Shown here one piece after another: positions 3,560 through 64,000 of a stretch of DNA of 64,000 nt. Positions within the stretch are counted from its first letter, which is position 1. The number at the start of each line of letters is the position of its first letter. Source of the stretch: Imbricaverruca yamaguchii (taxonomy: Eukaryota > Arthropoda > Thecostraca > Neoverrucidae); contig JAOTOL010001661.1 of assembly GCA_034440575.1 (NCBI GenBank), positions 1,892,001-1,956,000 of the forward strand, written 5' to 3'. The notes under the pieces are model-generated. The model saw only the letters and a list, made by a program, of their open reading frames with translations, did not search any database and was not told the origin of the DNA. The translations under genes were made by a program, and so were the position numbers.

Positions 3560-4092
3560 CTCGATCTCTCTTGGTGCCGCCTCCTCTGGGTGTCGTTTTT
3601 TATATAGAGGTGCCATCTGTTATCCGGAGGTGTCGTCCTCTAGACAGACGGATTTTTGCCATCTGTTCTGGACAGTCTGCCAGACGGATTTTTCGTTTGC
3701 TGGATAGAGGTGTCACTTGTTCGACAGGTGCGTCGCCTATTCGACACAGTTGTCATCTTTTCGACAGATGCATCGTCTATTCGACACAGATGTCGCCTGT
3801 TTGACAGATACATAGTCTGTTCGACATCGGTGTCGTCTGTTCGACACGGATGTCTTCTGTTTGACACAGGTGTCGTTTATTCTACAAAAGTGTCGCCTGT
3901 TCGACATATGCATCGTCGTTCGACAAAGAATGTGTCGTCTCCTCGACACATGTGTCGCTTATTCGACAGGCGCATCGTTTGTTCGATACAGGTGTCGCCT
4001 GTTCGACAGATGCATTGTCTATTCGACTCAAATGTCGTCTGTTCGACAGATGTGTCGTCTGTCCGGCACAAATGCCCTGTGTGGGACAGCCA
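3560..4092. repeat. 20-bp minisatellite, part 2
   Basis: About 18-20 consecutive units of 20 bp, consensus near CGACAGATGTGTCGTCTGTT, run from about 3715 to 4080 with more diverged units upstream. Each unit holds a dyad (CGACA / TGTCG), so neighbouring units can fold as hairpins. Units vary at many positions and there are no unique spacers. Open frames on both strands that rotate through three reading frames are a consequence of the repeat. Confidence 0.8.
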
Positions 4093-14088: not shown

Positions 14089-17007
14089 CTGACACAAGAC
14101 GAGGTGGTGTGGTCACGCTACATGGCGAGTTTCTTCGGTTGGGCTGGCCATCATGTTGGTTTGGCCGCAGGTCATTGATTTGGCCTTGGGAAAATGAACT
14201 GTCTGTGTCGGACACGGTTACACCTTTCATGCATGCAGCCGGCCAATCCCGATGGGTTGATACCTCTCGCTACTTGGTGGCTGCCATCCCGCCGCTGCCA
14301 AGAGACTCCAGGGATACATATCAGTGGGCTGCGTTCCACGAGGCAGATCCAATAGTGGTCAAATTCACACTTTGGGTTAACCAGCTTCCCTTCAGGGCAG
14401 CCGGGTTCTTCCAAAACGTCGAACCCGATAACCGGACCGAAGAATGGATGTATTTCAGATAGGCCCGCCTGCTAAATATCACAGCAGAGCAACGTCCTGG
14501 AACTCAAATATTTATGTGGAAAACGACACCATTCAGGAAATTGTTTTGATCTGCTGTGGGTACAATTTTAACTTCCTGAGCTACATTTACATGGAACAAA
14601 AAGGTCGTCTAGGATAAATTATCAAATAATATCGTGGTCACCGGCCTGATGTTGTGGCCGGATAGTATCCAAAACATAGCTTAACTGCAGAAACAGTGTA
14701 GGATTTTCATAATTTTTTCTTGGTAGTGTGCAGTACAGAATTTTTAGCTGGAGTAAGAATTTTTAAGCTGGATTCCAAAAAAATAGCTATGCACTTACTG
14801 ACAATTAACCTTGTTTTAGTGGGGCTGAAAACCAATGTTAGCATTTTTGTATGCATAAACATCTTGGCAAACTAAGCCATGTCCAAAATTTTGCTGCACT
14901 AAAAAATGAGTTGTCCATAACCAGGTAGCATTGCTTTAATGGAATTAAAAATATATGTTAGCATTTCATGCTGTATGTACCATGCAAACATATATGCACA
15001 TATAGCTAACTTCTAAGTCAGCAATATGTCAGCAAGCTAAGTCATGAATAGGTGCAATTGTGCCAAGGAATGCATCTTGTGGGAAATGCCCTCAGTAGCC
15101 AAAGTACTCCCAAAAGTACCCATGATATATGCAAATTGGATGGATATTGCCTGAGTGTAGGTGGGTGATGCATTCCCAAAGTTCACAAACAAATATTTAT
15201 GATAAATAGGCATGATGTGATGTAAATACACCAATAACATTTCTCCTGGCAGAGCTCAGGATGAATTGCACTCAAACTCATCTTGGGCGGACCACACAAC
15301 CGGGATCATCCGTCAACGAACACTTCTCCGAAGGTCTAGTCCCACAACTAATGAGCCGAGTTCACCCGCGATTCATTATAATTATTGCTAACTTCCGTCG
15401 TTGTCCAAGATCTCAAACACTCCCAAAATGCATTTCATGGCCCCGGTCAACTTTTGCACTATTGCGAGTTTGCGCGCACCATTCGCCACCGACGCATAAT
15501 ACACAGCTCTGCCTCGGACCTCAAAATTGGCAGTGATTAAATTATTACCGAAGGATGAGGTTATAAACCAACTTCATGAGCAATGGTAGAGAAAATGATC
15601 ACAAAAGTATACTTAATCGATGTCAACGAAGTTCACAAATGCGCACCCGACACCCGAGACCGGCTCACAGCACACACTTGATATTTGCAACAACCCCATG
15701 TGACTATTGGATATAGGTTTTGGAATATAAAATGGTTGAATGAAAATCATACTAAAACAATCCGTCTAAAATAGTTTTATTCTCACCACCAAGAAACAGT
15801 TATTTTGCATAAAAGAGCTGAAAAAAATGATGGAAACCGATTCTTTTCAGTATTAAAAGTTCCTTTATGCACTTGTTTAGTTCATGTCTGGAATGTTTAG
15901 TTGAAGTAAGGATCGATTTGGAAGGATCCCGAGCTGCTAGACAGGAGAGCAAATTGCCCCTGAAAAACCACTTATAGGCAGTTTTTTTTGTTAAATAGAG
16001 CTGGTCGGATTCGCTTTACTTGCACCAGAAGTACAGCTGATCACGGGGCGGGCAGACAGGTTATAACTCGGAGTAAATTTGGAACAAGTATTACAGACCC
16101 TTCACTGACACTGAGGAACCCCAAATGCAGTTATATTTCAAGGTGCATGATTTATCTTCACACACCTTCGACCTTCGATTGCACATTCAAAATGCCTTAA
16201 TGGTCAAGCAAGGCTTCAAGTATTTACTCTGGCAATATCAAGTACCCCCAGAATTGCCAACTAGGGATTTCTGGTACTTGTTGGCAAGCACTCCAGCACG
16301 AGTATCTAAAAATAAATATTAAATATATATTTATTAGTCTAAATATATTATGTATAAGAACAAATATTTATAAATATTGAATCAATATTGAATAAATATT
16401 TAATGAATTATTGACTATATTGACACAAATATAGCATCTCCACACATGTGAAGCGCCGCCAGTTGCGCATAGTTTTTTTTTAGCGCAACACCAACGAGCA
16501 CGTGTGGTTCGCTTTGTACTGCCTTCCAAAGATGTATTGTGATGTTGACTGGTCGGCGTGCAGGGATCGTTGAAACTGCTAGTTGTTTTCAGGTATGGAC
16601 TTTGAGTGGTAGCACTCGACCAAACAATGTTCTTCGTTTTCACTTCTGGGGTACAAAATATTACATTTAGTCTAGTCACAATCCTGGAGCACAAAATGTA
16701 TCGGTATGCATGACACCAACAAACATCAGTTTTTCCAGAACTGTGCAGAAAAGACAGACCCAAACAAAATACCCCATACATGCTCCCAGAAATAATGGCA
16801 TAGTTGGTGACTTGAAATGACCCGAGTCAAATATTCTCCAGTTCCGCGATATACATACGCTGTATTATACGGGAAACGGCACCGCCGCGAACTGTTTTTA
16901 TGTTGGTCGTCGCAGGTAGGGCGCTCGTTATTGAGGCAGTGTTCACAAATTCATTTTGTGTGGTGTCCGACTTCAGAAAAATGTTCCATGGAATGAACTT
17001 GATGTGC
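14089..17007. other. Non-genic or Caprin 5'-intron sequence
   Basis: AT-rich DNA, with a CpG-richer island at about 15250-15545. On its minus strand the island contains a short frame beginning MKCILGVFEIL, but a stop follows without a good donor (see findings). AT-rich tracts lie at 16310-16420. No gene can be supported. Confidence 0.4.
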
Positions 17008-38400: not shown

Positions 38401-41273
38401 CTCTTATTTTTCCTTGGTTCTCCAACGTGCACCTCTTGCATCCTCTGTTCTTGCACAACATTTAGGTTTCCTGCATGGCAATCGGCTATACATCATTGGT
38501 GCCTGGTGTCTGATCTGTGAGGAGGTGTGTTCCCAAGTTTATAATAGTCATCTAGTCATCGATCTGACCTGTCCGTCATTTTCAGCCAGCCAGCAGGCGG
38601 CCAAAGCACGCTCCAGCTCCGGTGCCCAGAAGTCCTCCAACTCCGCCACCCCATTCGGCGCACAAATATCACTGGACGAAGCGATGAAGATTCTCAACGT
38701 CGATAAACTCGACCCGGAGCACGTGCAGAAGAGCTACGACCACCTGTTCAGCATAAACGACAAGTCTAAGGGCGGCTCGTTCTACCTCCAGTCCAAGGTA
38801 CTTGTGCACAGCTCTGAATCGCCTGATGTGAGTCGCGTTCTGACAGGAATTTGCTACTCCATAGGCCGCCCGTGGAATGCCAACAGCTGAGTCCGAGCCT
38901 TTTTGTGTGTGGAGTGGTGTATGTGTATTTATGTAAGCATAGTAGTCGTGTGCCATTGGTTATTGTTGCACGACCTGCAGTGCCATTAGTTAATGTAATT
39001 ATCCAATCCCGCGTCCCACCGGCGAAACAGTGTGGGCCGTGATCCTGCATGAAGTGCGTCGTGAACCGCCCAATAACCGAACAAAGCGAATGTTGTGGGC
39101 AACCCTATTCACTGGAATGCTGTTGACAATCCTTGTAGCAGGAATGTTGTGGACAACCCTTGCAGCTGGAATATTGTGGATCATCCTTGTAGCTGGAATG
39201 TTCTGGACAGCCACTGTAGCTGGAATGACACAGCCAAGTGTTCATTCGCAGCGTTGGAGAACTCTTTAGAAGGTGCTAGTTCTAGTTATTGATGGTTATA
39301 TCGATGATACTTTGTTCCGCATGCCATTCGAGCCGTCGCCCTTCCCCGATTTCACGATGTTTTTCCAATTTCGCGGCTGTTGTTCCCATCTCCCGGCTGC
39401 CTTGTTCTGTGTGACTGCGGATTGGCGACAGATCTGTGAGAGTGAACCCCCAACCACTCAGCAGTGCCATCGATACTGCAGTGAGAAACACTAGCCAATC
39501 ACTCAGCAGTTCCATCGATACTGCACAGAGAAACTCTGGGTAAAAAGTGCGATGGCGGCTCTCGCAATCTTCAATGAATGTAATGAGCGCATTAAATGTA
39601 ATCCCTTCCAGTTCAATCCATTCTATTAACAAGCGCCCTGGAGGGGGCGGGCGAAATCCGCCCCCCCTCCGGTTTTTCGCAGGTAACTCCCGATTTTACC
39701 GGCCGATATACGCCATTATTTGTGTACCTGCTTAGAAATGAACGGCACGTTGTTTAAAGGAAGAAAAATGAAAATCGACCGAATTTTTTCCAGTTAGGGG
39801 TCGGTAAAGTAAAAACAAATCCACCGCCAGACCATAAATATCGGCGCTCATGCGCTTCCCGTATATTGGCAAAAAGGAAGTGTTCTTGGCAACACTAGCG
39901 ACTTTTTTATGTATATTGTTATGCTATATTGATTCCAAGTCATGTCAGGTCATCGAGGTCAAGTCAGGTCAAGAGGTCAAGTTCATGACAGGTTAACACA
40001 CACCCTGGAGGGATGGAGGACGAAATCCGCACACCCCTCCGATTTTTCGTACACAACTCCACATTGTACCGGCCGATATACGCCATTTTCCCGTGCCTGC
40101 TTAGAAATGACCGGCGCATTGTTTAAAGCAAGAAAAATGAAAATCGGCCGAAACGTTTTTAAGTTATGGGCCGTTGATGTTTTTACAAAAATCGCAGCGC
40201 CAGACCACAAAAATCTGTGCTGATGCGCTTCCCGTATATTGGCAAAAGGGAAGTGTTTTTGACAACACTAGCGACTTGTTTGGTGCATATTGTTATGCTA
40301 TATAATTTAAAAGTCATGTTAGGTCGCTGAGGTCATCATGACAGGCTAATGGAACCAAACTTGGTCAACTGGAATGTTGTCATAAATGGAAATGACTCTC
40401 GTGCGATTGATGTCACTTTGCAGTTACTCCCTACACATGCGGAAATCTACGATTTGTCATTGTGTGCTTAAGCGTTTCTATACTTCATTCATGTATTTCA
40501 CTCCTTTCTTTGCCAATCCGATTGTGGGAGCCGCCCAACGGAGCAGTCAGGTGGGCAGCCCGGTTCCGGTAACTGGAGCAGGTAATGACCTGATAAAGTG
40601 CTATATAGGTGACCTGAGGTCAAATGGCGGATCTGGCATATGTATTGCATCATTAGTAATGTCCAAAACAACATTAATGACAATTTTGGAGCATTTAAAC
40701 AATCATAGCGATCCATAACAATGACAAGCCAAGCCACGCAAAACCAGAACATTTAGTTATTCTGACCTCATTTTACCTTCAAGATTTTGACCTAAGGTCA
40801 CGAAATTTGTACACAATAGAGTTAACTATCGTGCCCATCCATCCTGCGAATTTCGTTGTTCTAGCCTTAATGGGAGCCGAGATCTTAGGGGCGGAATCCG
40901 CCCCCACCCCCCTCCAGTGCGCGTAAGTTTCAGAGGCACTCCATGACGCGTGTTAAGTTTAATCTCAACGACGTGAACCACGTCGTCACATTTTCTGTAC
41001 TGCTGGATGCCTTGCCCTGCATTCACTGCGTAATGGCTTCCATTGTGTTGTGCTATGTCTGTCTGTCTGTTTGGCCGCTGTAATTAAGCTTCAGTGTAGT
41101 ATCCGTCCTCGGCTGTGCTCCTCTCCCACCCACGTGCGGGAGAGCTGGACCATAATACCAGGTCACGTGCGTTGCAGGTGGTCAGAGCCAAGGAGAGGAT
41201 AGACGCCGACATGGCAGCTCAGAGCAGCCAGTCGAAAGACCGTGGTCCGTCTACGTCATCCGGTCAAGGCTAG
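32427..41273 (+). CDS. PAM16: PAM16/Magmas, TIM16 subunit of the mitochondrial import motor
   Basis: PAM16 is a J-like protein on the matrix side of the TIM23 inner-membrane translocase. It pairs with PAM18 and restrains its stimulation of mtHsp70. Exons: a proposed ATG-only end of exon 1 at 32427-32429, then 36676-36760, 38586-38797 and 41178-41273. Phases are 0, 1 and 0, all GT-AG. The product is 131 residues against 125 in human. The N-terminal [20 protein letters not shown] segment is followed by RALKQEF. A linker precedes the J-like domain [20 protein letters not shown], and [14 protein letters not shown] carries DKS where true J proteins have HPD. The C-terminus is [13 protein letters not shown] and ends GQG-TAG. 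Exons 2-4 are secure. Exon 1 is inferred from ATG|GTAAGC in a suitable place. AATAAA lies 190 bp past the stop. Confidence 0.9.
32430..34179 (+). other. PAM16 proposed intron 1, first part
   Basis: AT-rich intronic sequence with GGTTAGG words at 32762-32890. No coding homology recognised. Confidence 0.4.
34180..35050. other. GC/CpG-rich open region inside PAM16 intron 1, unidentified
   Basis: Unlike the AT-rich flanks, this block has high CpG and overlapping open frames on both strands, among them a plus-strand stretch at 34766-35035 beginning [14 protein letters not shown] recognise no family. A decayed transposable element, a processed gene fragment or an alternative promoter island are all possible. 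Confidence 0.3.
36676..36760 (+). CDS. PAM16: PAM16 exon 2: N-terminal membrane-associated segment
   Basis: Acceptor TTTTGTTTCAG|GCGAAG, donor TTCGAAG|GTGGGT, 85 nt ending in phase 1. It encodes [20 protein letters not shown] and then RALKQEFE, matching the first 29 residues of animal PAM16. Confidence 0.93.
37956..37990. repeat. Perfect 14-bp hairpin in PAM16 intron 2
   Basis: Arms GATTAATTTTGCTT and AAGCAAAATTAATC are exact reverse complements around a 7-nt loop (TGAATAT). Confidence 0.9.
38586..38797 (+). CDS. PAM16: PAM16 exon 3: J-like domain
   Basis: Acceptor CGTCATTTTCAG|CCAGCC, donor TCCAAG|GTACTT, 212 nt. It encodes the linker [14 protein letters not shown] and the J-like domain from [12 protein letters not shown] to [14 protein letters not shown]. 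The DKS tripeptide in place of HPD identifies PAM16 rather than PAM18. Confidence 0.95.
39631..40335. repeat. Tandem pair of about 370-bp element copies in PAM16 intron 3
   Basis: Two copies start CCTGGAGGG at about 39636 and 40004 and share TACCGGCCGATATACGCCAT, CCTGCTTAGAAATGA, GCGCTTCCCGTATATTGGCA and TGTTATGCTATAT in order. A related end, GGCGGAATCCGCCCCCACCC then CCCTCCAGTGCGC, lies inverted at 40888-40922. The whole 39631-40922 block could therefore be one inverted-repeat element with an internal duplication. Confidence 0.7.
41178..41273 (+). CDS. PAM16: PAM16 exon 4: C-terminus
   Basis: Acceptor GTGCGTTGCAG|GTGGTC in phase 0. It encodes [15 protein letters not shown] and a Ser/Gln/Gly-rich end with TAG at 41271-41273. 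Human PAM16 continues VVRAKERLDEEL at the same point. Confidence 0.93.
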   Translation: MVRAKERIDADMAAQSSQSKDRGPSTSSGQG

Positions 41274-45280: not shown

Positions 45281-47205
45281 TTTCAGTTGGGAGCCAAAAT
45301 ATCGCCGAATATTGATAAGTGGCTTGGTGTTGGGTAGGTAGGTTGGTAGGTATACTACCTACCTAATTTTATAGCAAGTAGCATTCAAAATATTGGGAAA
45401 AATGTAGTGAATATAACCTATTCTTCTATGCAAGAAAGCATTCTATTTTTAAAAATGAGAAAAAGAATCCAACCAGCTAAAAAACCTAGCCTGCTTAGCC
45501 TAACCTATCCCTAAACTGTTTTGAGCAATAGAATTTGATTGAAAAACATTTTCCAATTAAAGATTTCTAGCTCACAACAGAACCCTAACCTTGCCAAACT
45601 TAGCCTAACCTAGCTTAACTTAGCCAAACCTGGCCCCTTTGTTTGCTCCATGGAGGTAAAATATTTGTCAAACTTGTCTCATGCTTGCCTTAAGCTGCCA
45701 TAATGCCTATTTTGTTCCTTGTGTATTCTTTTGTGGTCTATGTTTTATATGAAGTGTCCATTATCATGTCCTTCCATCATATATGTTTTATATATCATAT
45801 CTAGATGAGAAGATACATAGATATCTTCATTTTGATCCTATGTAGGTAGGTATGTGCCTATGTGGAAATGTTCTGCGTTGGTAATTATGCACAGTGCCAT
45901 TCTGCAAAATATGGCAAGTTCCAACAAGATTGTTAGTATGCAGATCCAAATTTAGGTATTCACTTGGCATATAAGGATGCTTCCAGGCATGCATCCAGCT
46001 GCATCAGGTGTGCAAAGCCACCAGGCATACAGGAGGCCAGTGCACCAGAAGCTGACAAGCACCAGGCATGAACTGGGCTAGTGCTGTAGCTTAATGCAGT
46101 ATTGAAATGTATTTCATTAAAAAAGCTACTCAAATTAGATACTCACAGAAGGGGACACAAGGATAAATCATGAGAGATAGTGCCCTAAAAATAATGCCAG
46201 TCCACCAAACTATCGTGCCGGATATTGAGAATTGCAGCTGCCACAAATTGTGTCAGAACCACAAAAATCATTATGGTATCCAGAGTTCAGGCTAGTGTCG
46301 TTTTCCTTGCTTACAAGAACAATTGTAGTCATCACACCCACTGACCCTGCAATTGCTCTTTTACAGTCAACTGTGTCAACAGTATAGCAACACTGGTTTC
46401 ATCCCATTGGTCAGGCTGAAATTAAATTAGGAGTCTTCCTACTATAAGCAAGAGTTGATTGCTATGCTGTAGGCATCATGTGGCCAGCCCTTGTCAAGGT
46501 ATCTGTTTCCACAGCCATGCTTGATGTGCCCATGTATTGAAACAGGGGCTAACAACAGTTGGTTGGCAATTGGAACTATCACATCCCCTATTGTTTCTTA
46601 AGCTTGTGCAGAGATGTGCATACCAAGATTTTATGTCATGAAGGCAGTTGGTCAGGCCAATGTACATTAACTGTCCTGTATTATATTAGTTATCCAGTAT
46701 GTGCACAACTCATTGCTCATTGCTCATCTTCTATAAACATGTAGTGGTGACCAATGAGTACTGTGTTATACTCCCAACATCAGTATCTGACCTATAGTTG
46801 AGAGAAACCTATAGTTGGCAAGCATCTACACACACTTTATCCTTCATGGCCTCCGACCATAAAAAAGGTCATTTTACACTAAGATGTCAAAAATGTATCA
46901 TGCTGCCTGAGATTAAATACCAGAAAGCATGAAAATGTGGAGCCAATCCAAAGCTATGATGGTCAGCTGAACTGTCAGCTTCCAAAAGTCTTTGGAGTAT
47001 GTAAATAGTTATGAATATGTCCTAAATGTTTGTGTAACCAAGGAGGTTTGTTGTGGCAAGATCCCTGGTAGGTGCTATCATACTAGCATGTCTGTTGACT
47101 TTATGAACCGGGCATATGCTACCATCCTGTCACATGCTCTTGTGAATATCAGTCATGTTCGGAGCATGCTCAGCAGTACAGCTCTTCGGGACTGCACATC
47201 AGCAA
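45281..47205. other. AT-rich non-genic DNA upstream of NAT9
   Basis: Contains GGTAGGTA/TACCTACC words at 45335-45365 and 45844-45852 and CCTAACC/AGCCTAACC words at 45490-45640. No coding homology. Confidence 0.45.
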
Positions 47206-47209
47206 CACC

Positions 47210-47336
47210 CGCGCACCATCATTCCACGGGCCGGCTCTGTTGCACCATCATCGCCCGTCCACAGGTCCACAGACGTGCTCTGTTGCACCACCATTGCCGT
47301 CCACAATTCCACGGGCCGGCTCTGTTGCAGCCGCCC
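47210..47336. repeat. Three imperfect 45-60-bp repeats upstream of NAT9
   Basis: CCGGCTCTGTTGCACCATCA, GTGCTCTGTTGCACCACCAT and CCGGCTCTGTTGCAGCCGCC are successive copies separated by GTCCACA-type blocks. Only the last has CTCTGTTGCAG, a plausible 3' splice site 18-20 bp before the NAT9 ATG. Confidence 0.6.
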
Positions 47337-47354
47337 CGCCATCTCCTGCGCACG

Positions 47355-48065
47355 ATGAAGATCAACGCGAACACGCGCATCTGGACCGAGCGCGTCGTGC
47401 TGGTGCCGTACCGACGTCGGCACGTGCCGCGCTACCACGGCTGGATGCAGTCGGCCGAGCTGCGCCGGCTGACCGCATCCGAGCCGCTCAGTCTGCAGCA
47501 GGAGTACGACATGCAGCGCGCGTGGCGGCTCGACGACGACAAGTGCACCTTCATCCTGCTGGACCGCACCCGCTTCGAGGCGACTGGCTGCGAGGAGGCG
47601 GCTATGATCGGCGACGTCAATCTCTTCCTGACTGGTGGCGGTGACGCGGACGATGGCGGTGGTGGTGGTGGTGACGGTGACGCAGACTGTGACGGTGGCA
47701 GTGGCGGTGGCAGGGCGGGTGCCGAGGTGGAGGCGATGGTGGCCGAACCGTGGGCTCGCGGAGCCGGCAGGGGGCGCCAGGCGACGGCCGCCATGTTGCG
47801 CTTCGGCTTCGAGACGCTGCGACTGGCGCGCTTCCAGGCCAAGATCGGGCTCGACAACGAGGCGAGCCGCGCCATGTTCGCCACGCTCGGGTTCGCCGAG
47901 GTGGGCCGCAGCGAGGTGTTCGGCGAGGTGACGCTCGAGGCGGTGGTGGACGCCGACTGGCGGCAGCTTGTGCAGGACCACAGCCGCGGCTACAGGCTCG
48001 AGGTGGTGCCGCACGACGATGACGACCAGGCGTGTCTGGAGGCCGCCGGCACGCGGACGGGCTGA
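47355..48065 (+). CDS. NAT9: N-acetyltransferase 9-like GNAT protein
   Basis: NAT9 is a GNAT-fold acetyltransferase implicated in N-terminal acetylation and microtubule stability. The 236-residue frame begins MKINANTRIWTERVVLVPYR and continues HVPRYHGWMQSAELRRLTAS then EPLSLQQEYDMQ. This aligns closely with human NAT9 (VVLVPYT...HVPSRYHEWMKSEELQRLTASEPL). DKCTFILLD and MIGDVNLFLT follow. The acetyl-CoA loop is RGAGRGRQ (residues 135-142), then RFQAKIGLDNEASRAMFATL and GFAEVG. A Gly/Asp-rich insertion of about 30 residues (94-123) splits the core where human NAT9 has a short acidic loop. The start at 47355 fits the family N-terminus; a longer upstream frame from 46992 crosses repeats and is unlikely. 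The coding region is in one exon here. Confidence 0.92.
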   Translation: MKINANTRIWTERVVLVPYRRRHVPRYHGWMQSAELRRLTASEPLSLQQEYDMQRAWRLDDDKCTFILLDRTRFEATGCEEAAMIGDVNLFLTGGGDADDGGGGGGDGDADCDGGSGGGRAGAEVEAMVAEPWARGAGRGRQATAAMLRFGFETLRLARFQAKIGLDNEASRAMFATLGFAEVGRSEVFGEVTLEAVVDADWRQLVQDHSRGYRLEVVPHDDDDQACLEAAGTRTG

Positions 48066-50728: not shown

Positions 50729-53700
50729 GTGAGTTACGACAACAGCACGAAGCAAGTTTTCTGCCTGTTGCGTTTTGTTATTGTTCAGTGGATCGTGTTG
50801 ATGTACCGAACATCCCTGCCATCACGTGTGGTTTTGTCGCAGAAGTCTCCCGCAGAAGCCGCATCTGACATCACAACAGGCCGACACAACAGCAGGCTGA
50901 CCATGGCCGTAATATTGGCCGTTAGTCACACCTGTGTATTGTTATTCCCTGTCCGACAGAATAGGTTCCGAGGATGTTCGCTTACGAGCGCGTAGGATAG
51001 GCTAAGCTTCTTATCTGTTAGAAAGCGCTCGAGCCACTGCAATGTCCAGTCGAATCAATACAGTTGCTGCAGATATTAGCATTTTATCGCATGAGCATGA
51101 GCGTACGTATAGATCACCACCATGCACCACTAACCTTTAGCCATTTTGAATTTGTTAGCTTCAGCTTTGTGGGTCACTTGCAATGATTCGTATTTTAAAC
51201 TCCTGTACCCCGCATGTAGGTCTCGGAATTTGGCCTGTTACCGTGTAAATATATTCACTGTTGTCCATCCAGTCTGTTCACTGCGCCACCGCAATACTTG
51301 TAAATTTCTCTACTTTTCATTCTTCTCCACGCTGTCACCACATTGTTTCCACATATCACCACTATCCACCAGTTTCACTAATCCACTCCTTTATTCGTTT
51401 CTTCCATTTTTAACACCAATTTTCCCACTACGTCACCGAACTTCATCTTGATCCATGTCACCACTGCGCCACCAGTTCCATCCCCTTCCAGTCTTGTCTC
51501 CCCTCTCGGCGAGTCTTAAGCTCCTAAAATCAATGTACTTTCGCTGTTCTCCCTAGCCTTCGAATGCATCCGTCCGTCAGAAGCTCCATGCATTTCGCTG
51601 CGGCTCCGCCATCGTCCTGTAAGTTCATATAATTTTATATTGTCCCGTGTCCGGCGCCCTCCCGGTCCAGAAGCTGCCACCCCGTCCTCCCAGTTCCGTC
51701 CCGGTCCGCAGCCACCAGCCCCGTCCTGTCAGTTCCCTCCCGGTGCCGCAGCCACCACCCCGTCCTGTCAGCTCCCTCCCGGTGCCGCAGCCACCACCCC
51801 GTCCTGTCAGCTCCCTCCCGGTGCCGCAGCCACCACCCCGTCCTGTCAGTTCCCTCCCGGTGCCGCAGCCACCACCCCGTCCTGCCAGTTCCCTCCCGGT
51901 GTCGCAGCCACCACCCCGTCCTGTCAGCTCCCTCCCGGTGTCGCAGCCACCACCCCGTCCTGTCAGCTCCCTCCCGGTGTCGCAGCCACCACCCCGTCCT
52001 GTCAGCTCCCTCCCGGTGTCGCAGCCACCACCCCGTCCTGTCAGTTCCTCCCGGTGCCGCAGCCCTTGCCGCCACGTCCTGTCAGTCCCTCCCGGTGTCG
52101 CAGCCACCACCCCGTCCTGTCAGTTCTCTCCCGGTGTCGCAGCCACCACCCCGTCCTGTCAGCTCCCTCCCGGTGTCGCAGCCACCACCCTCGTCCTGTC
52201 AGCTCCCTCCCGGTGCCGCAGCCACCACCCCGTCCTGTCAGCTCCCTCCCGGTGTCGCAGCCACCAGCCCCGTCCTGTCAGTTCCCTCCCGGTGCCGCAG
52301 CCACCACCCCGTCCTGTCAGCTCCCTCCCGGTGTCGCAGCCACCACCCCGTCCTGTCAGCTCCCTCCCGGTGTCGCAGCCACCACCCCGTCCTGTCAGCT
52401 CCTCCCGGTGTCGCAGCCACCACCCCGTCCTGTCAGCTCCCTCCCGGTGTCGCAGCCACCACCCTCGTCCTGTCAGTTCCCTCCCGGTGTCGCAGCCACC
52501 ACCCCGTCCTGTCAGCTCCCTCCCGGTGTCGCAGCCACCACCCCGTCCTGTCAGCTCCCTCCCGGTGTCGCAGCCACCACCCCGTCCTGTCAGTTCCCTC
52601 CCGGTGTCGCAGCCACCACCCCCGTCCTGTTAGTGGTGCCCCAGCGTCCAGTCAGTCCAGCCACCCCCGTCCTGTCAGTTCCCTCCCGGTGTCGCAGCCA
52701 CCACCCCGTCCTGTCAGTTCCCTCCCGGTGCCGCAGCCACCAGCCCCGTCCTGTCAGCTCCCTCCCGGTGTCGCAGCCACCAGCCCCGTCCTGTCAGCTC
52801 CCTCCCGGTGCCGCAGCCACCACCCCGTCCTGTCAGTTCCCTCCCGGTGTCGCAGCCACCAGCCCGTCCTGTCAGCTCCCTCCCGGTGTCGCAGCCACCA
52901 CCCCGTCCTGTCAGTTCCCTCCCGGTGTCGCAGCCACCACCCCGTCCTGTCAGTTCCCTCCCGGTGTCGCAGCCACCACCCCGTCCTGTCAGCTCCCTCC
53001 CGGTGTCGCAGCCACCACCCCGTCCTGTCAGCTCCCTCCCGGTGTCGCAGCCACCAGCCCGTCCTGTCAGCTCCCTCCCGGTGTCGCAGCCACCACCCCG
53101 TCCTGTCAGCTCCCTCCCGGTGCCGCAGCCACGAGTCTCGTGTCCGGCACTCAGCCGGCGCTGCTGTGCCGCAGCGCTCTCGGACAACAGCGTGTGGACC
53201 GAGGGCCTGCTCGTCTTCTACGACATCTTCTCGTACCTGGAGTCGGCGCTGGACCGGCTCGGCGACTCGCTGGTGGGCGAGCTGGACATCGAGGGCATGC
53301 GGCGGCGGCCGGCGTTCGAGGCCGACCTCGCCTTCTACCTGGGCGTCGACTGGCGGCGCCGGCACGTGCCGCGGCCGTCCGTGCGCCGCTACCTGGACCA
53401 CCTGGCGCAACTGGAGCGCGACTCGCCACACCTGCTGATGGCCTACATCTACCACCTGTACATGGGTCTGCTGTCGGGCGGCCAGGTGCTGCGCGGCAAG
53501 CGCATGCTGCTGGGCCGTCTGCTGGGCGGCGGCGGCGCTGCCGATCGGCCCGGCAACGCGGTCACCAACTACGGCCGCCACCAGATCCGCCAGCTCAAGA
53601 CGCGGCTCGCCGCCGCCATGAACGACGTTGCCGACCAGCTGGATGACGTCACGCGCAGTCAGCTGATCGCCGAGAGTCGGGACGTGTTTGTGCGCAACAA

Positions 53701-54802: not shown

Positions 54803-55025
54803 TCACAAGTCACCATCTAACAGATTCCTGCCGTCTATGAGCGCCGCAAGGAAAGCGTGCTTATCCGCGGGCTCCGCCAGAGCCATACTGTTCCAATGGT
54901 GCGGGTGCACGAAGCGTACGGTGAAGCCGAGGATCTCCAGGTGTCGCTTCCGCAGCAGCTGCGCCCCGATCAGGTGTGGTGTGTTGATGCAGTAGTCGTT
55001 CGTCGACGGCACCAGCAGGGCGATA
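54803..55025 (-). CDS. FASTK-family last exon: RAP domain
   Basis: Acceptor GGTCTGTGTTGCAG|TATCGC restores a Ser codon. Encodes IALLVPSTNDYCINTPHLIG, AQLLRKRHLEILGFTVRFVH and PHHWNSMALAEPADKHAFLA, ending LLDGDL-TGA. RAP is a restriction-endonuclease-like fold found in organellar RNA proteins. The exon's first 10 nt are part of the 30-bp unit repeated through the upstream intron. Confidence 0.9.
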
Positions 55026-58000
55026 CTGCAACACAGACCGGCAGTCAGGGCGACGTTGCAACACGGATCAGTAGATAGGCCGATACCGCGACACAGGCCG
55101 GCAGTCAGGGTGATACTGCAACACTACCGGCAGTCAGGGCGATACTGCAACACAGACCGGCAGTCAGGGCGATACTGCAACACAGACCGGCAGTCAGGGC
55201 GATACCGCAACACAGACCAGCAGTCAGGGCGATACTGCAACACAGACCGACAGTCAGGGCGATACTGCAACACAGACAGACAGTCAGGGCGATACCGCAA
55301 CCCAGACCGATAGTCAGGGCGATACTGCAACCCAGACCGGCAGTCAGGGCGATACTGCAACACGGATCAGTAGTTAGGGCAATACCGCAATACAGGCCGG
55401 CAGTCAGGGCGGTACTGAAACACAGACCGACAGTCAGGGCGATATTACAACACAGACCGGCAGTCAGGGCGATACCGCAACACAGACCAGAGGGGCAGTC
55501 AGGGCCATACTGCAACACGGATCAGTTAGAACACCGGCAGTCAGGGCGATACTGACAGACAGACAGTCAGGGCGATACCGCAACACAGACCGGCAGTCAG
55601 GGCGATACTGCAACACAGACCGGCAGTCAGGGCGATACTGAAACACAGACCGGCAGTCAGGGCGATACTGAAACACAGACCGGCAGTCAGGGCGATACCG
55701 CAACACAGACCAACAGTCAGGGCCATACTGCAACACGGGTGTATGGCGATACCGCAACACACACCGGCAGTCAGGGCGATACTGCAACACAGACAGACAG
55801 TCAGGGCGATACCGCAACCCAGACCGATAGTCGGGGCGATACTGCAACCCAGACCGACAGTCAGGGTGATACTGCAACACAGACCGGCAGTCAGGGCGAT
55901 ACTGCAACCCAGACCGACAGTCAGGGATACTGCAACACGATCAGAGTTAGCAAGAACCGGCAGTCAGGGCGATAGGAACAGACGACAGTCAGGGCGATAC
56001 TGCAACACAGACCGGCAGTCAGGGCGATACCGCAACACAGACCAGCAGTCAGGGCGATACCGCAACACAGACCAGCAGTCAGGGCGATATTGCAACACAG
56101 ACCGGCAGTCAGGGTGATACTGCAACACAGACTGGCAGTCGGCATAACGATACTGCGACACAGACAACCACGGTGGTGGCAGTAAGCAGCGCCGTACTAT
56201 GTGTTCACGGGGTCGCCCGTGTCGGTGTAATCCGCCTGGTAGCCATGGGACTACCCTAATTCACCTCGTCTACATGGGGTTGCCCTAACCTACCTGGTAG
56301 CCATGGGATTGCCCTGACCAACTTCGCTATGAGGCTGTCCAACTCACCTGATGGCTACAGGGCTGCCTTAACCCACCTGGTGGCCATGGTGCTGCCCTAA
56401 CCCACCTGGTGGTCACGTAACCGCCCTAACCCACCTGGTGGCCATGGTGCTGCCCTAACCCACCTGGTGGTCATGTGACTGCCCTAACCCACCTGGTGGT
56501 CACGTAACCGCCCTAACCCACCTGGTGGTCACGTAACCGCCCTAACCTACCTGGTGGTCATCGTACTGCCCCAACCCACCTGGTGGTCATCGTACTGCCC
56601 TAACCCACCTGATGGTCATGTGACTGCCCTAACCCACCTGGTGGTCACGTAACCGCCCTAACCTACCTGGTGGTCATCGTACTGCCCTAACCCACCTGGT
56701 GGTCACGTAACCACCCTAACCTGTGGTCATGGAAGTGCCTAACCCACCTGGTGGTCACGTAACCGCCTAACCTACCTGGTGGTCATGTGACTGCACTAAC
56801 CCACCTGGTGGTCACGTAACCACCTAACCCACCTGGTGGTCACGTAACCGCCCTAACCTACCTGGTGGTCATCGTACTGCCCCAACCCACCTGATGGTCA
56901 TGTGACTGCCCTAACCCACCTGGTGGTCATGGAAGTGCCCTAACCCACCGGGTGGTCACGTAACCGCCCTAACCTACCTGGTGGTCATGGGACTGCCCCA
57001 ACCCACCTGGTGGTCACGTAACCGCCCTAACCCACCTGGTGGTCATGGAACCGCCCCAACCCACCGGGTGGTCACGTAACCTAACCTACCTGGTGGTCAT
57101 GGGACTGCCCTAACCCACCTGGTGGTCACGTAACCGCCCTAACCCACCTGGTGGTCATGGGACTGCCCTAACCCACCGGGTGGCCACGGAGCCACACCAG
57201 CCCACCTGGTGACCATGGGGCCGTCCGTGTCGGCGTAGGTGCCGTCCGGCCGGCGGTGGACCACCAGCTCGGCCGAGAAGTGGTAGCCGGCCGTGCGCAC
57301 GCCCCTGTGCACCAGGTGGCTGCCGCCCACCAGCTGCACCAGCTGGTCGTGCACGGCCGCCACCAGCTGCCGGCTGCCGGCGTCCGTCTGCAGGTCTGCG
57401 GCACACCATCAGACCGCCCGTCGGGCCACACACCGACTGTCGGAGATACTGGCGAACGGTGGATGCCCGCCCAGGTCATGGAAACCGGGATAGTCGTGCG
57501 TGTAGGCGGACGCCGTGTAAATGCCTTTGACAGAGATGGGCAACAAAGGCTCGCATCCCGTGAGCCATTGTCGACTCCCTTCTGCCGGTCTATGGACGCT
57601 GAGCGGAGTAGATTAGGGCCCTGGGGTAACATCGCAACTGCAATTCATGCACCGTGAGGTCATATATCCATCCAACCCCACTGTTACATCTCACTTCAAA
57701 ATCAGCTAAGTCATTAAAACACGACTGTAAAAAATATCACCGCATTGTTACCTTCTGTGTTCCTCACTTTAGATAAAAAAACGACCAACTTCTTTCCACA
57801 TCGCACATATTCTGGAATGACTGACATATATTATCACGCATAATTGGTAACTTGTGTATCCGCACTTCGATTCTGTCGCAGTTCATGATACATCGCGACG
57901 TTCTTAAATGTTCTGCGAGCTAGCATTTGGAAATTGCATGTCCGGCAACAATAACCACCACTGTATTCATGGCACTCAAAATATCAGGGAAACCCACTCC

Positions 58001-61000
58001 GAAGACAGACGTAAGAGTACACGCACAACCCTATTCAGCAGGCACACCACTTAGTCGACTGAAACGTCGTTCATATAACAGTTTAATTCTTTGCACTTCT
58101 AGAGCAAACAGGATAGTGTATCATAGCCAGCTTTACATCGTTCAGTTAGTGGTTAAAACTCAATACATAATTTCAACAAACATTATGTGATAATCATATT
58201 CAGAACCAGATGCAGATCCGTACCAACAGAAGGGAATCCTACCGGGAACCAGATTCAGACCCACACCAACTGGACTGCAATGGATCCTCCCGGGAAATCG
58301 CCTGTGTTCTCCAAATTCAGTCGTATAGATCCTTCCTTTCGGGAGAGGGTGGCCAACTGGATCAGTCAGAGCAGTGCCCCCACCCCCCAGTTAGTGGCCA
58401 TTCCTCCTGGTTTCCTCGGATGGTTTCCCCGCGGTGGCCAATGAGGCGACTCCAGTCAAAATTCCTCAGACGAGGCGCCGGATGTAGCCAAATTCACCCT
58501 TGTGGTCGCCTTCAAATCTGCCTTCATGCCTATCTTCTACTCCGTTTCTAAACATTATTCCCACCATTTATTTTTAATCCTGAGCGTCAGGTTATCATGA
58601 GCGGGAGAGCTGACCGGACGTGACCTGGTGACCTGACGTAGCGCGCTGGTCAGGATATCCAAGTATCGCCGTCCTCCTGACCTCAATCTCTGAAGACCCG
58701 CCACGTCGTGATGTGCAACACGACGCGTGCGACAACATTAACGCTATGTTGTGCGACACCGGTGCGCAGTTCCGCGGCGGCTCCGCTCACCGGGCAGGCC
58801 CTGGGCGTACACGCCAGTGAACCAGGGCATGTTCTCGTCGGGCAGGTTCAGTCGGATGGCCCTGTTGACCTCCATCTGCAGGTGGCGCAGTCGGTGGCCG
58901 GCGCGGTTAGTGCGGTGGTGCTGCTCCGCCCCTGTGGCTCCGTCCTGCCGACAACCCCGCCGTCACAGCGCAGCCCGAGACGTCCCCACCACAACACCAC
59001 ACAACATTTTCCTCGGAGATATCAAAAATTACAATGCCATCATCAGGCCACCCTTACGTCATCCTACGATACACCCCGACCCTCACATCCTCCGAGACAG
59101 CCAGGCCACGACACCATCCGATGACCCTCAAACAATCATCCGATACATTTCGATGATATCACATGTACCCAACATCCACCAAACTTCTTTGGAACTCCAG
59201 ATGACACCCTTCCGCTTCATTGACATCACAATGACGCTCGACAAACAAGCATGTCTGGCATCGTACGGACAACCTGAACCGTTCTACTGGTCGGCCTGAC
59301 TTCCAGAATTGGAGTTGGAATTGGAACCATTACATCAGTCAGCCTGCGTTCAAAGTTCGCGTGGTGCGGATCACTTACGTTGGCAGCTGACTGCCGAATT
59401 TCGCGCTCCGTCTGGTCGAGGAATGCCTGACTGAGCACAGTCCTGGCCAGACCGACCGGCAGCTCGCCGTACAGACACAGCGCCTGGCACGCGCGCAGCG
59501 TCTTCTCGGCCGGCATCCGGTACACGCTCCTGCGGTGGCACCGCGGCTGTCAGCGGGACCGGGACTGTGGGCGCATCTGGGACTGCCAGCAGGACGGAGA
59601 GAATGTCAGCAGTACGGAGAGACTGTCAGCAGAACGGAGAAGCTGTCAGTGGAGCCGGAGCTATCAGCGGAACCGGAGAGACTGTCAGGAGGACGGAGAC
59701 GCCGTCAGTGGAGTTCGAGCTCTCAGTTGAGCCTCGGCTGTCAGTGGGACCCGGAATGACAAACCGCGCCAACACGACACACAGTGCGGTTGGGATCGGA
59801 TCTGTTTGCGATCATGCGACCGTCAGCAGGACCGAGACAGTCGGTGGGATGGGGACCATCGGTCCCGCACGCGTCCTGCCAGCTGGACACACCACCACGG
59901 CGGTGTCGGAACTGTGTACTGTTGTCGGCCGCTCTACAGGTCGCCTCATGTCCTGACCCAGGAGTTAGCATCTGCACACGCTACCGTGGTGGCATCGGAG
60001 CTGCGCACTGCCGCCAGCGACCCTACAGGACACCTGATGATCTGATACTCGATACCCGATAGGGACGGTGGCCCGCGGAGCCGTAACTCAGTGGCGATCG
60101 AGTCGGCTACGACCCGCTGGATAGACAGCCATACCAAGGGGCCGAGCCACTGGCACATACAAATACAAACACTTTGGCATTTAATATTGCACTCGTAGGC
60201 TTAACTATTCGTGTGAATTGTGAATGGGTCTATTTGGCGATAAAAATACTTCAGTCACACATGGTTAGCTGTACTAAGCTGCACTAATGAGGGGAAACTT
60301 CGGATAGTCAGACAGCGCTACCCACCTGGACATGATATCGGCTGCGGTGGCGAGAAAGTCCTCCAGCTCAGAGTCGTCCAGCGGCCAGTAGCCGGTACTG
60401 AAGACCATTGCCAGCACAGGCTCCACAGCCACGCCCGTCACGTGATCGCGATGCTGCACAACGTGCCTGTGGAAGGTTAGTCACGTGATCGCTGAGTTAC
60501 ACAACGTAGCTGTAGAAGATCAGTCACGTGATCGATGCGCCGTACGTGTCTGTGGAAGGTTAGTCACGTGGTCGCTGTGCTGCACAGCGTAGCTGTAGAA
60601 GATCAGTCACGTGGCAATTCGCACACCCAGTCGTCCTGTTCCTTTGTGTGGTTGTAGACTCGTCTGTACACGGTAGGCTCTCCACAAGATCCATTATCCC
60701 GCCACACTATGCCACTGCATGCAACATTCAGAAATTGCTAAGGTCTCCGCGATCGCTGCAGCGAACGCTTTGGCGGCCTTGAGGCTTGGCTAAAGGTTGT
60801 TTGTGTTGGCAGCGATTCGTGTACGAGCCACGACCTTCCTCAACCACTGATGAATGTTCGAGGCACACGTCTTCTATCACGTTCACACAAACATTGAAAA
60901 AGCTGCATGTTGTCCATCAGTGGCATTCGTACGACATTAATGAACACTGTGACGGCATCAAATTCCAGCGTGCATAACCGTTTTGCTTCACCAGCTGCGC

Positions 61001-63617
61001 TCATGTCACGCACCCACATGCTCGTCTCCTGCGGGACTTCTTCGCACTTATATTTTCTACTTCTTCTCTAAATCTTCTACCCGATTTCCGGAAAGCCGAT
61101 GATATACTAGATTGTCGGCCACGCCCCCTGCCCTTCCCCTCTGGACCACCGAATCACTACATAGTTACCCCGGCGACCACCCGCCAACTCATAGGTGCCC
61201 AGTGGCGCCTCCACCCAACCGATTTTGGCAATGCTGCACTAGTTTCTCCCACGCATCCAATGCAATATCGCGTTTTTTTAAGCGCACATAGCTATTCCTC
61301 TTTGACACGCGCGCCAGAGGGATTTTCACATTACGGGCACTGGAGGAGGATTCGCTCCCCCTTAATATATCGTTAACTACTGAAGTTAGAAGCACAAGAT
61401 TTGGAATGTGGATTACGGCGGCAGTGAACTTCCTTCAGTACAAATATCATGACCCTGGATTCAGCCCAGCCTTCAGGGTCGAATGAGGTCAACATCAGCC
61501 GCGGCTCCACCGCACCGACGAAACCCTTGACCTTGGAATTTCGGCGGCGGGCCGATCGGGTCGGCTTTGCACCCCGCAGGTCGTATATTTACCGACGGAA
61601 ATATATTCTTGTTGCATGGGATGTGCTAATCAGTGTTTAGCAGTCACAAGATTTCATTACAATATCCCAGCCCTTTTGTGTGCTGTCGAAAAAAAACAGA
61701 AGTGGGTGGATTCCGCCCCCCTACACACACCTCTGCTGCGCGTACTAACTGAGTTCGGCGCCGACACTGGCGGGATGTCGCCGTCTGCCCGCGTGTCGCT
61801 CACCTGCACAGCCGCCGTATGACGTCCGGGTCGCGGTAGCGCAGGTAGCCCAGTCCCAGCGAGAGGGTGCCGACCGACCGCGAGCTGAGCGAGTCGCTGC
61901 AGAGCTGCGGCGCCGCCATCAGCTCCTTCAGCCGGGTCACCACGGCGTCCAGCACGACCGTGTTGCCGCGCACCACGCCGCTCCGCTGGATGATGCCCTG
62001 CACCAGGCCGGCCATCACCCCTGCCGCCCACCGGCACACGTCAGGGTACAGGTACACGGCGGTACATCCACGGTCACTGCCGTCCATCGGCACACGTCAG
62101 GGTACAGGTACACGGCGGTACATCCACGGTCACTGCCGTCCACCGGCTCACGTCAGGGTACAGGTACACGGCGGTACATCCACGATCCCTGCCGCCCACC
62201 GGCACACGTCAGGGTACAGGTACACGGCGGTACATCCACGATCCCTGCCGTCCATCGGCTCACGTCAGGGTACAGGTACACGGCGGTACATCCACGATCC
62301 CTGCCGTCCATCGGCTCACGTCAGGGTACAGGTACACGGCGGTACATCCACGATCCCTGCCGTCCATCGGCACACGTCAGGGTACAGGTACACGGCGGTA
62401 CATCGACGATCCCTGCCGCCCACCGGCACACGTCAGGGTACAGGTACACGGCGGTACATCCACGGTCACTGCCGTCCATCGGCTCACGTCAGGGTACAGG
62501 TACACGGCGGTACATCCACGATCCCTACCGTCCATCGGCTCACGTCAGGGTACAGGTACACGGCGGTACACTCCACTATACCACTGCCGTCCACCGGCAC
62601 ACGTCAGGGTACAGGTACACGGCGGTACATCCACGATCCCTGCCGTCCATCGGCTCACGTCAGGGTACAGGTACACGGCGGTACATCCACGATCCCTGCC
62701 GTCCATCGGCACACGTCAGGGTACAGGTACACGGCGGTACATCCACGATCCCTGCCGTCCATCGGCACACGTCAGGGTACAGGTACACGGCGGTATAGCC
62801 GAGATTCCTACCGCCCACCGGTACACGTCGGGGTACAGGTACACGGCGGTACATCTGAGATCCATGCCGCCTCCCGATACACGTCAGGATATAGGTGCAC
62901 GGCAGTATATCCGATATTTCTGCTGCCCACCGGTACAAGGACAAACAATATAGAAACAATAGAAACAGATTTCAAAATAAATACTCCTATTCCCGAAGAG
63001 CATTACAAGAATATTGACACCGGAAACGATTCGCAGTGCGAGTAGAAACCGAGGTTCATTCGTGACATTATAATGTGATACCTAGTATGCCATGGAGAAC
63101 CTACAACAGATTAAAGACAAATGCCAAGCTCTTCCTTCACTGGGCCATGGAACGACATCACTCATCATCAGCCTTCACGCTATCTTCATTTCAATCCATA
63201 ATGCCCTTGAACTGAATGATTCCGTATATTTCAGTGGATGTAGCTCGAAACAATCGTTTGCCAAACTCTGTCCCTGTCCCCCTCTCTTCTGTCTCCGTCT
63301 CGTCTCCGTCTCCGTCTCTGTCTCTGTCTCTGTCTCTGTCGTCTGTCTCTGTCGCTGTCTCTGTCTCTGTCTCTGTCTCTGTCTCTGTCTCTGTCTCTGT
63401 TCTGTCGTCTGTCTCTGTCTCTGTTCTGTCTCTGTCTCGTCTCTGTCTGTCTGTTCTGTCTGTCTGTCGTGTTGTGTTTCTCTGTCTCTGTTTGTTCTGT
63501 TTGTCTCTGTTCTGTTCTGTTCTGTTCTGTCTCTGTCTCTGTCTCGTCTCTGTCTCTGTCTGTCTCTGTCTTCGTCTCGTCTCTGTCTGTCTGTCTCTCT
63601 CTCTCTGTCTCTGTCTG

Positions 63618-63716
<99 letters not shown>

Positions 63717-64000
63717 AATTTCTCTCTCTAAAACAAGTGAACTACCATTAACTACATACCATAACCAGAGTTCCTTTAACACGGAGAACACTAACAAACG
63801 CCGAGGGGTCGGCAGCCAATGATATTCACTCGGTGCGTGAGCAGGCGTCCGCGGAGAGGCGTGTTATCTGACCGATGGACGTGAGTGTGGGCAGCCGGCG
63901 CAGTGTCCAGTTATTGAGACCAATGTTGAGCTGGGTCAGCTGGTGCAGATAGCTGTGCGAGTTGGGCTCAACCATGCTTCGGGCGCGCCGCTTGCCTAGG
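54803..64000 (-). CDS. FASTK-domain (FAST_1/FAST_2/RAP) mitochondrial RNA protein, 3' seven exons
   Basis: FASTK-family proteins act in mitochondrial RNA processing and stability. Seven exons read on the minus strand: 64000-63873 (cut by the window end), 62020-61804, 60466-60326, 59529-59379, 58875-58791, 57395-57206 and 55025-54803. Intron phases 1, 2, 2, 0, 1 and 2 all agree across GT-AG junctions, giving 377 residues to TGA. FAST_1-type sequence includes SLGLGYLRYRDPDVIRRLC, GYWPLDDSELEDFL and TLRACQALCLYGELP. The FAST_2 part has EVNRAIRLNLPDENMPWFTG and LVQLVGGSHLVHRGVRTAGY. The final exon is a RAP domain: YCINTPHLIGAQLLRKRHLE then ILGFTVRFVHPHHW. The N-terminal half and mitochondrial leader lie beyond the window. 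The family is clear, but the member (FASTKD1-5) is not. Most introns carry minisatellites containing the adjacent splice site. Confidence 0.85.
55021..56165 (-). repeat. 30-bp minisatellite of the 3' splice site
   Basis: About 38 units. On the gene strand the unit is TATCGCCCTGACTGCCGGTC then TGTGTTGCAG. The unit includes the polypyrimidine tract and AG acceptor and the first 10 nt of the RAP exon. The true acceptor is the first member. Thirty is a multiple of three and the unit reads (I/V)ALTAGLCC(S/G/N) in the RAP-exon frame without stops. Several units have lost the AG (GCAA, GCGG) and some have indels. Confidence 0.95.
56217..57205 (-). repeat. 29-bp minisatellite of the 5' splice site
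   Basis: About 34 units. On the gene strand the unit is GTGGGTTAGGGCGGTTACGT then GACCACCAG. The junction CACCAG|GTGGGT repeats the real donor GTCACCAG|GTGGGC at 57206/57205. Some units read CATCAG|GTG or have lost the site (CACCCGGTGG). Only about 50 bp of unique sequence (56166-56216) separates it from the acceptor array. Confidence 0.95.
57206..57395 (-). CDS. FASTK-family exon: FAST_2 domain
   Basis: Acceptor GGTGTGCCGCAG|ACCTGC, donor GTCACCAG|GTGGGC, 190 nt. Encodes DLQTDAGSRQLVAAVHDQLV, QLVGGSHLVHRGVRTAGYHF and SAELVVHRRPDGTYADTDG. The donor is the first member of the 29-bp array that fills the adjoining half of the intron. Confidence 0.87.
57396..58790 (-). other. FASTK-family intron without minisatellite
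   Basis: 1.4 kb of mixed composition. A plus-strand frame near 58200-58440 is open but not recognised. No tandem array is seen at either splice site. Confidence 0.6.
58791..58875 (-). CDS. FASTK-family exon: FAST_1/FAST_2 junction
   Basis: Acceptor CGCCACCTGCAG|ATGGAG, donor CTGCCCG|GTGAGC, 85 nt. Encodes MEVNRAIRLNLPDENMPWFT, GVYAQGLP. The LNxAxxL..P....PWF pattern is typical of this family. Confidence 0.85.
58876..59378 (-). other. FASTK-family intron without minisatellite
   Basis: About 0.5 kb phase-0 intron. No repeat array or foreign gene seen; open plus-strand frames overlap the antisense of exons. Confidence 0.6.
59379..59529 (-). CDS. FASTK-family exon: FAST_1 part
   Basis: Acceptor GTGCCACCGCAG|GAGCGT, donor GCCAAC|GTAAGT, 151 nt. 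Encodes SVYRMPAEKTLRACQALCLY, GELPVGLARTVLSQAFLDQT and EREIRQSAAN. Confidence 0.87.
59538..59760 (-). repeat. 20-22-bp acceptor-like repeats
   Basis: Gene-strand units such as TCTCTCCGTACTGCTGACAG and TCTCCGTTCTGCTGACAG, about 10 in all, precede the real acceptor of exon 59529-59379. Each has a pyrimidine-rich stretch and CTGACAG, which supplies both a branchpoint-like CTGAC and an AG. Confidence 0.75.
60326..60466 (-). CDS. FASTK-family exon: FAST_1 part
   Basis: Acceptor TAACCTTCCACAG|GCACGT, donor ATGTCCAG|GTGGGT, 141 nt. Encodes HVVQHRDHVTGVAVEPVLAM, VFSTGYWPLDDSELEDFLAT and AADIMS. Its first 30 nt are duplicated, with the acceptor, in the upstream intron. Confidence 0.85.
60467..60620 (-). 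repeat. Three extra tandem copies of an acceptor plus exon start (40-43 bp)
   Basis: On the gene strand, CACGTGACTAACCTTCCACAG or CACGTGACTGATCTTCTACAG is followed by (G/C/A)(C/T)ACGTTGTGCAGC-like sequence three times upstream of the real acceptor. Each copy holds a branchpoint-like CTAAC/CTGAT, a pyrimidine tract, CACAG/TACAG and a version of the first 30 nt of exon 60466-60326. CACGTG occurs in every unit. Confidence 0.85.
60621..61803 (-). other. FASTK-family intron, unique part
   Basis: About 1.2 kb without recognised features, CpG-rich at its 5' end near 61750-61803. The array next to the 3' acceptor is listed separately. Confidence 0.5.
61804..62020 (-). CDS. FASTK-family exon: helical repeat region
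   Basis: Acceptor GTGGGCGGCAG|GGGTGA, donor CTGTGCAG|GTGAGC, 217 nt. Encodes VMAGLVQGIIQRSGVVRGNT, then DAVVTRLKELMAAPQLCSD and SLGLGYLRYRDPDVIRRLC. Its acceptor lies at the start of the 56-bp array. Confidence 0.85.
62021..62935 (-). repeat. 56-bp minisatellite containing the 3' splice site
   Basis: About 16 units. On the gene strand the unit has ATCGTGGATGTACCGCCGTG, TACCTGTACCCTGACGTGTG and CCGATGGACGGCAG|GG. The true acceptor, GACGTGTGCCGGTGGGCGGC then AG|GGGTGA, is the first member. The 56-bp period rotates through three frames, which creates a nearly 1.2-kb open frame on the plus strand that is not a gene. Confidence 0.95.
63290..63718. repeat. (TCTCTG)n / (CT)n microsatellite
   Basis: Compound GTCTCT, GTCT and TTCTG repeats grading into pure (CT)n at 63620-63700, in the FASTK-family intron. 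Ser/Leu/Cys-rich and Arg/Glu-rich open frames are artefacts. Confidence 0.95.
63873..64000 (-). CDS. FASTK-family exon, partial at window edge
   Basis: Reads LGKRRARSMVEPNSHSYLHQ, then LTQLNIGLNNWTLRRLPTLT and SI, with donor TCCATCG|GTCAGA in phase 1. Upstream continuation is outside the window. Leucine-spaced helical sequence fits the FASTK repeat region. Confidence 0.75.

Follow-up and report, generated by a model that had tools for sequence, protein, structure and literature searches.

How an intron could come to consist almost entirely of copies of its own donor and acceptor sites, and how the sites bordering the exons could still be chosen among them, are questions raised by a FASTK-family gene (FAST_2/RAP) found in a 64,000-nucleotide stretch of barnacle DNA, referred to here as the window. 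The intron between exons F and G of this gene (the FG intron) is a phase 2, GT-AG intron of 2,180 nt, lying at window positions 55026-57205 on the minus strand. Its real donor reads CACCAG|GTGGGC (57206|57205, minus strand) and its real acceptor TGTGTTGCAG|TATCGC (55026|55025, minus strand). According to TRF, two arrays fill 95.7% of the intron (2,086 of 2,180 bases). The relevant features are as follows.

57206..57395, minus strand: exon F, containing the FAST_2 part as judged from the ortholog (joined frame, ortholog)
56235..57218, minus strand: donor array, with a 29-bp unit containing CACCAG|GTGGGT and reaching 13 nt into exon F (TRF, cut points, homology)
56206..56229, minus strand: diverged copy of the end of exon F (20/24), mid-intron (shuffles and random 60-mers)
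55016..56140, minus strand: acceptor array, with a 30-bp unit containing TGTGTTGCAG|TATCGCCCTG and reaching 10 nt into exon G (TRF, units, homology)
54803..55025, minus strand: exon G, the last exon, containing the RAP domain and the stop codon (Pfam, joined frame)

On the acceptor side, TRF delineated 30 bp x 37.0 at 55016-56140, while on the donor side it delineated 29 bp x 3.2 at 56235-56326 and 29 bp x 28.9 at 56363-57189, with 87 bp x 10.0 at 56365-57218 as an alternative reading of the donor array. Splitting the intron at the motifs yielded 31 donor-type cut points, while the number of acceptor units came to 34 with one pattern and 35 with another. Conservation of the donor GT inside the array is not drawn on as evidence, since GT was demanded by the cutting pattern. 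The first-pass annotation of this DNA, which described two different arrays at 55026..57205, is thus borne out by both TRF and motif splitting; its estimates of about 34 donor and about 38 acceptor units are fair by length, and its proposal that amplification proceeded separately from each exon edge is upheld. Homology to the arrays extends 7-16 nt into downstream exon G and up to 21 nt into upstream exon F, in both cases far above the values from 200 shuffles. Between the arrays lie 94 bp assigned by TRF to no array. Within this middle portion, 24 nt resemble the 3' end of exon F at 20 of 24 positions, a score equalled in one of 300 shuffles and in two of 3,863 random 60-mers of the window. 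As such, the truly unique part of the intron is smaller still.

Arrays of this sort are hard to assemble, and the copy number, taken from one assembly, may be in error. Still, it is scarcely conceivable that an assembly artefact is the source of the arrays, and this explanation was rejected: the units have a mean pairwise identity of about 0.80, divergence which argues that the assembler did not invent them, neighboring units differ from one another, and the exons read through in a single frame.

Exon A, followed to the window edge, and exons B-G, separated by GT-AG introns, together give a single open frame that codes for 377 residues. Pfam identified the RAP domain in exon G (E 1.1e-6), while exon F by itself gave no Pfam match, its FAST_2 part being assigned by the ortholog. 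All that the initial protein search returned was a Pollicipes protein stopping short of the FG junction; a chimeric query then found an Amphibalanus protein of 971 residues (232/408 identities), the likely ortholog, whose accession is tagged with RAP (PF08373) and FAST_2 (PF08368). Across the FG junction, this protein reads ...TDGPRVTS-LALLVPST..., with no insertion and with both exon edges fitting. The remaining modelled junctions are likewise ungapped relative to Amphibalanus, save for D/E, where the Amphibalanus protein has 34 residues more than the model. As far as protein evidence goes, the outermost FG sites are therefore the real ones, as had been proposed in the first-pass annotation.

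That annotation had also foreseen that the splicing machinery would face many near-equivalent donors and acceptors, an expectation upheld, at the level of sequence, at both ends of the intron. Among 51 counted GT sites in the donor array, 27 are predicted to pair more strongly with the 5' end of U1 than does the real FG donor. Specifically, the calculated pairing energy of the real donor is -10.3 kcal/mol, as compared to -10.9 for CAGGTGGGT and -11.3 for CAGGTAGGT, decoys present in 19 and 7 copies, respectively. The acceptor half of the intron offers 22 unit-type CAGs, the real one counted in. The AG is kept in 15 of 27 full-length acceptor decoys and gone in the other 12, and most acceptor units contain a branch-like CTGAC motif 20 nt before the end of the unit. 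The decoys nearest to the real sites match them in quality, and the real acceptor has no distinctive AG-free zone. Indeed, such a zone was rejected as selector of the real acceptor, given how its 88 nt are exceeded at two of the 21 other unit-type CAGs. The reading frame stays open into exon G from just three of the 51 donor GTs and one of the 24 other AGs, such that splicing at a decoy would in most cases introduce a stop in frame.

Arrays at splice junctions are not the peculiarity of one odd intron but recur at other junctions of the same gene and at least at one of another gene, a recurrence that escaped the first-pass annotation. The gene was followed 9 kb past the window, with five further exons being placed using the Amphibalanus protein. 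Of the 21 junctions listed in this manner, 20 show GT or AG as placed; the X2 donor is set 2 nt off, and the X1 and X2 acceptors were left out. Arrays overlap the exon edge at seven of the 21, namely, the FG donor and acceptor, the AB and BC acceptors, the X1 donor, the X3 acceptor and the X4 donor, and at each of these homology continues across the real junction. The overlap at the AB acceptor is just 2 nt, the X3 acceptor unit holds 4-7 nt of exon, and the X4 donor is accompanied by 31 exact copies of CTGCAGGTAGGT. The X4-X3 intron, like the FG intron, is amplified from both ends. The remaining 14 junctions are not spanned by arrays, although two of them, the X3 donor and X5 acceptor, are abutted by arrays that come within 15 nt yet hold no copy of the splice site. 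A strict test over 40 nt, with the threshold set at 20, showed extra copies at four of 14 junctions (the AB, BC and FG acceptors and the FG donor) and at none of the other 10. The window contains the following additional arrays near splice junctions of this gene and of a plus-strand heme oxygenase gene. The closest match to the latter is from Amphibalanus amphitrite (80% identical across 92% of the query), with Pollicipes pollicipes (71%) second among the named matches, which places the host among the thoracican barnacles and makes it probably an acorn barnacle.

62019..62912, minus strand: 56-bp array ending at the exon B acceptor (62021|62020), most of its units including just 2 nt of exon (TRF, homology)
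60437..60613, minus strand: 43/83-bp array spanning the exon C acceptor (60467|60466), its unit including 30 nt of exon (TRF, homology)
59581..59726, minus strand: 20/59-bp array, 51 nt before the exon D acceptor, with partial junction likeness only (TRF, homology)
51677..53132, plus strand: 39-bp array in a heme oxygenase intron, stopping 42 nt short of the acceptor (53174|53175; TRF, homology)

Neither of the two heme oxygenase junctions is spanned by its array. Elsewhere in the window, 20/40-bp arrays occur at 3718-4074 and 2694-2783 with no identified gene alongside. Exons at 9983-14112 (minus strand) and 46971-48062 (plus strand) look to us like those of Caprin and N-acetyltransferase 9, respectively; the two Caprin-like exons viewed (11060-11330 and 13100-13520) have no adjoining TRF array. 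A dispersed repeat at 39626-40956 has two more copies in another stretch of the genome (L012), with 88.7% and 82.6% identity.

Such repetition of splice sites could be thought to serve a selected function, with donor units (CAG|GTGGGT) acting as ratchet points for recursive splicing or as a buffer of redundant sites. The adjoining AG and GT in these units would suit such a role, as would the 31 exact copies found at the X4 donor. However, TGACCACCAG, which precedes the AG in donor units, is by eye not pyrimidine-rich, while acceptor units run on as AG|TATC, with no GT, and have lost the AG in the 12 full-length decoys noted above. A selected function is given very little credence.

The distribution of such arrays beyond this gene was considered in the genome (767 Mb, 1,430 contigs) and in an outside sample of 200 kb, comprising 20 stretches of 10 kb (L015-L034) taken at round coordinates on four contigs. 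Minisatellites, defined by a period of 10-150, at least 3 copies and at least 100 bp, make up 22.3% of this sample vs. 8.4% of the window. One clear case was met outside the FAST_2/RAP gene among the few exons viewed with their flanks, namely an ALG10 exon (Pfam DIE2_ALG10, E 1.1e-12), the acceptor position of which was inferred from the Pfam match and the AG. Upstream of this exon lie four intronic copies, spaced 85, 85, 85, and 90 bp, each comprising the first 54 nt of the exon (WDDKITTLPGLYLLSVGL) and 31 nt of the intron end; the copies have substitutions within or stops after them. The other exons viewed with flanks (two in L019, one in L016, and two in L018) show no spanning array, while the L016 donor is abutted by one. 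The L019 exons, which we take to belong to liprin, and the L016 exon, which we take to be spectrin-like, gave no match in Pfam.

Among 72 Myosin_head matches in the genome, 12 are short exons lying within open frames of 594-1,080 aa (for example, C1171:288936-291518, C1376:1866589-1869612, C1082:452662-455742, C1138:563141-564751 and C1307:921267-923201). In five pairs of exon matches, both members are listed with the same frame length, as if the intervening intron were open end to end; an intron filled by arrays that lack stops and have a period divisible by 3 would be expected to look like this. For Kinesin, seven of 126 matches fall in frames of over 500 aa (for example, C1294:125339-127369 and C1362:849473-851002).

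Given that introner elements are repeats that carry splice sites and occur in dispersed copies, it could be asked whether the arrays derive from an introner-like element spread to many genes. An array on contig C968, beside a possible exon, matches the FG acceptor array at 69% over about 1.1 kb, the best match in the genome search other than the window, and speaks for such dispersal. Nonetheless, neither FG unit matched above shuffles elsewhere in the window, and the genome search, which skips common words, returned just 15 weak matches, two above 80 bits, one of these being the window itself. Moreover, while splice-site content is common to introners and the barnacle arrays, the latter are local and tandem, and each junction has its own unit. 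As judged from that search and from this anatomy, an introner-like origin is highly improbable. The 29-bp array about 69% like the FG acceptor array (L009 5233-6358; L002 about 1500-2710) lies beside a possible short exon with a weak Pfam match to INTS2 (E 0.056, below cut-off).

The direction of copying can be read from the exonic portions of the units. The exon part of the FG acceptor unit codes for residues conserved in Amphibalanus; the 30 nt of exon in the BC unit (HVVQHRDHVT) are conserved in both Amphibalanus and Pollicipes. In all, the coding sequence included in units at FG, BC, X1, X4 and ALG10 is conserved either in other genera or in Pfam. Because coding sequence common to several genera predates the local array, copying ran from the exon edge into the intron. 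This bears on whether ordinary intronic minisatellites, growing anywhere, simply met an exon in some instances, with the splice site being captured or mimicked in the array. In a genome so rich in minisatellites (22% of the arbitrary 200-kb sample), encounters of this kind could be expected, and the arrays that abut the X3, X5 and L016 sites without copying them, like the CD and heme oxygenase arrays that stop short of the junction, could be so explained. Conserved coding sequence within units at FG, BC, X1, X4 and ALG10, however, argues otherwise, as does the clustering of arrays at exon edges of the FAST_2/RAP gene. When the same 11 arrays, each with a period of at least 15 and at least 3 copies (a CT-rich simple repeat at 63282-63729 was set aside), were placed at random, with up to 31 nt of exon permitted and with the 5' ends of X1 and X2 being approximate, a mean of 1.09 and a maximum of five edges were overlapped in 5,000 runs, vs. 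the seven observed. Chance encounter thus seems an unlikely origin for the junction-spanning arrays.

Instead, we are largely confident that these are arrays of the type termed 'mirages' in amphioxus, which arise when a stretch across a junction is duplicated in tandem and which are tolerated so long as the exon-proximal copy is spliced. A short segment straddling the exon-intron boundary, made up of flanking intron and, in the cases measured, 2 to 54 nt of exon, would undergo tandem duplication followed by amplification, with slippage or unequal exchange as the presumed mechanism. In the case of an acceptor, the resulting order would be intron, exon piece, intron piece, and full exon. The extra copies would all end up inside the intron, where the array could grow and homogenize. 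Were the copy next to the full exon used, the mRNA would be unchanged, which could explain why junction arrays are tolerated whereas duplications within exons are purged. Such tolerance is probably the reason for arrays sitting at junctions; exclusive use of the outer sites, loss of any mis-spliced RNA and a very high rate of minisatellite birth as the driver all appear probable as well. Junctions may also be true mutational hotspots, with survival bias in an array-rich genome being the alternative. A still broader proposal, about which doubt outweighs confidence, is that junctions are the preferred birthplaces of minisatellites genome-wide, that arrays extend from exon edges into introns, in some cases from both ends, that introns thereby become largely decoys of their own sites, and that the exon-proximal copy is picked among dozens of equal sites with exon context alone deciding.

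How one of several equal splice sites comes to be chosen is usually investigated by means of designed constructs. This barnacle genome seems to have built such constructs, in which donors or acceptors near-identical over tens of bases are repeated many times and the true site differs from them mainly in its position. A route of intron growth is suggested by the arrays as well, with its direction, from exon to intron, being readable from sequence. If the genome-wide reading were true, the lineage would amount to an experiment of nature, on a large scale, in how splice sites are chosen and how introns grow.

Our literature search found no report of splice-site minisatellites in barnacles, which is not proof of their absence from print. 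A word search of three barnacle genome papers (PMC8917513, PMC8270832, PMC11331182) met neither 'minisatellite' nor 'tandem repeat', and PMC8724738, checked for duplicated splice sites, held nothing usable. The Rogers model, as cited in PMC3087553, has introns being gained when AG/GT proto-splice sites are duplicated and, like the present arrays, involves tandem duplication of sequence with splice signals. The FG intron itself could have been so made, from an exonic AGGT segment, an origin with which the exon-derived copies at either end and in the middle of the intron would agree. In that model, however, the intron arises between two copies of one segment, whereas the barnacle donor and acceptor were amplified separately. 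The two FG units are unlike each other, each with true intron sequence, and the joined exon reads ACCAG|TATCGC, with AG|TA rather than the AGGT of a two-copy boundary. Such an origin of the FG intron is therefore improbable.

The closest parallel is offered by the amphioxus mirages. The first-pass annotation, which knew of no standard element class that does this, was mistaken on this point, since mirages had already been published. As described in passages of PMC3087553 and PMC3902484, they are minisatellite-like tandem duplications of 5' or 3' exon-intron boundaries, with AG/GT in many units, found in Adh3, the globins BflGb6 and BflGb9, and TnC, with similar repeats in PGBD5, and reported not to disturb regular splicing. 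The barnacle introns likewise contain tandem repeats of minisatellite type (TRF, units), their units span the boundary with both exon and intron sequence (at both ends of FG and at BC, X1, X4, X3 and ALG10, with AB, at 2 nt, being marginal), and AG/GT is kept in many, not all, units. Unlike the amphioxus examples, the host is a crustacean. Whereas the globin mirages comprise 3-6 units of about 150 bp, the units at each end of the FG intron measure 29-30 bp and number about 30 or more, and the barnacle gene has introns amplified from both ends and arrays at seven of its 21 listed junctions. Tandem duplication of exon boundaries is thus known, if rarely described; what differs here is the crustacean host, the scale relative to the globin cases and the amplification of introns from both ends, with mirages being extended beyond amphioxus to another animal group unrelated to it.
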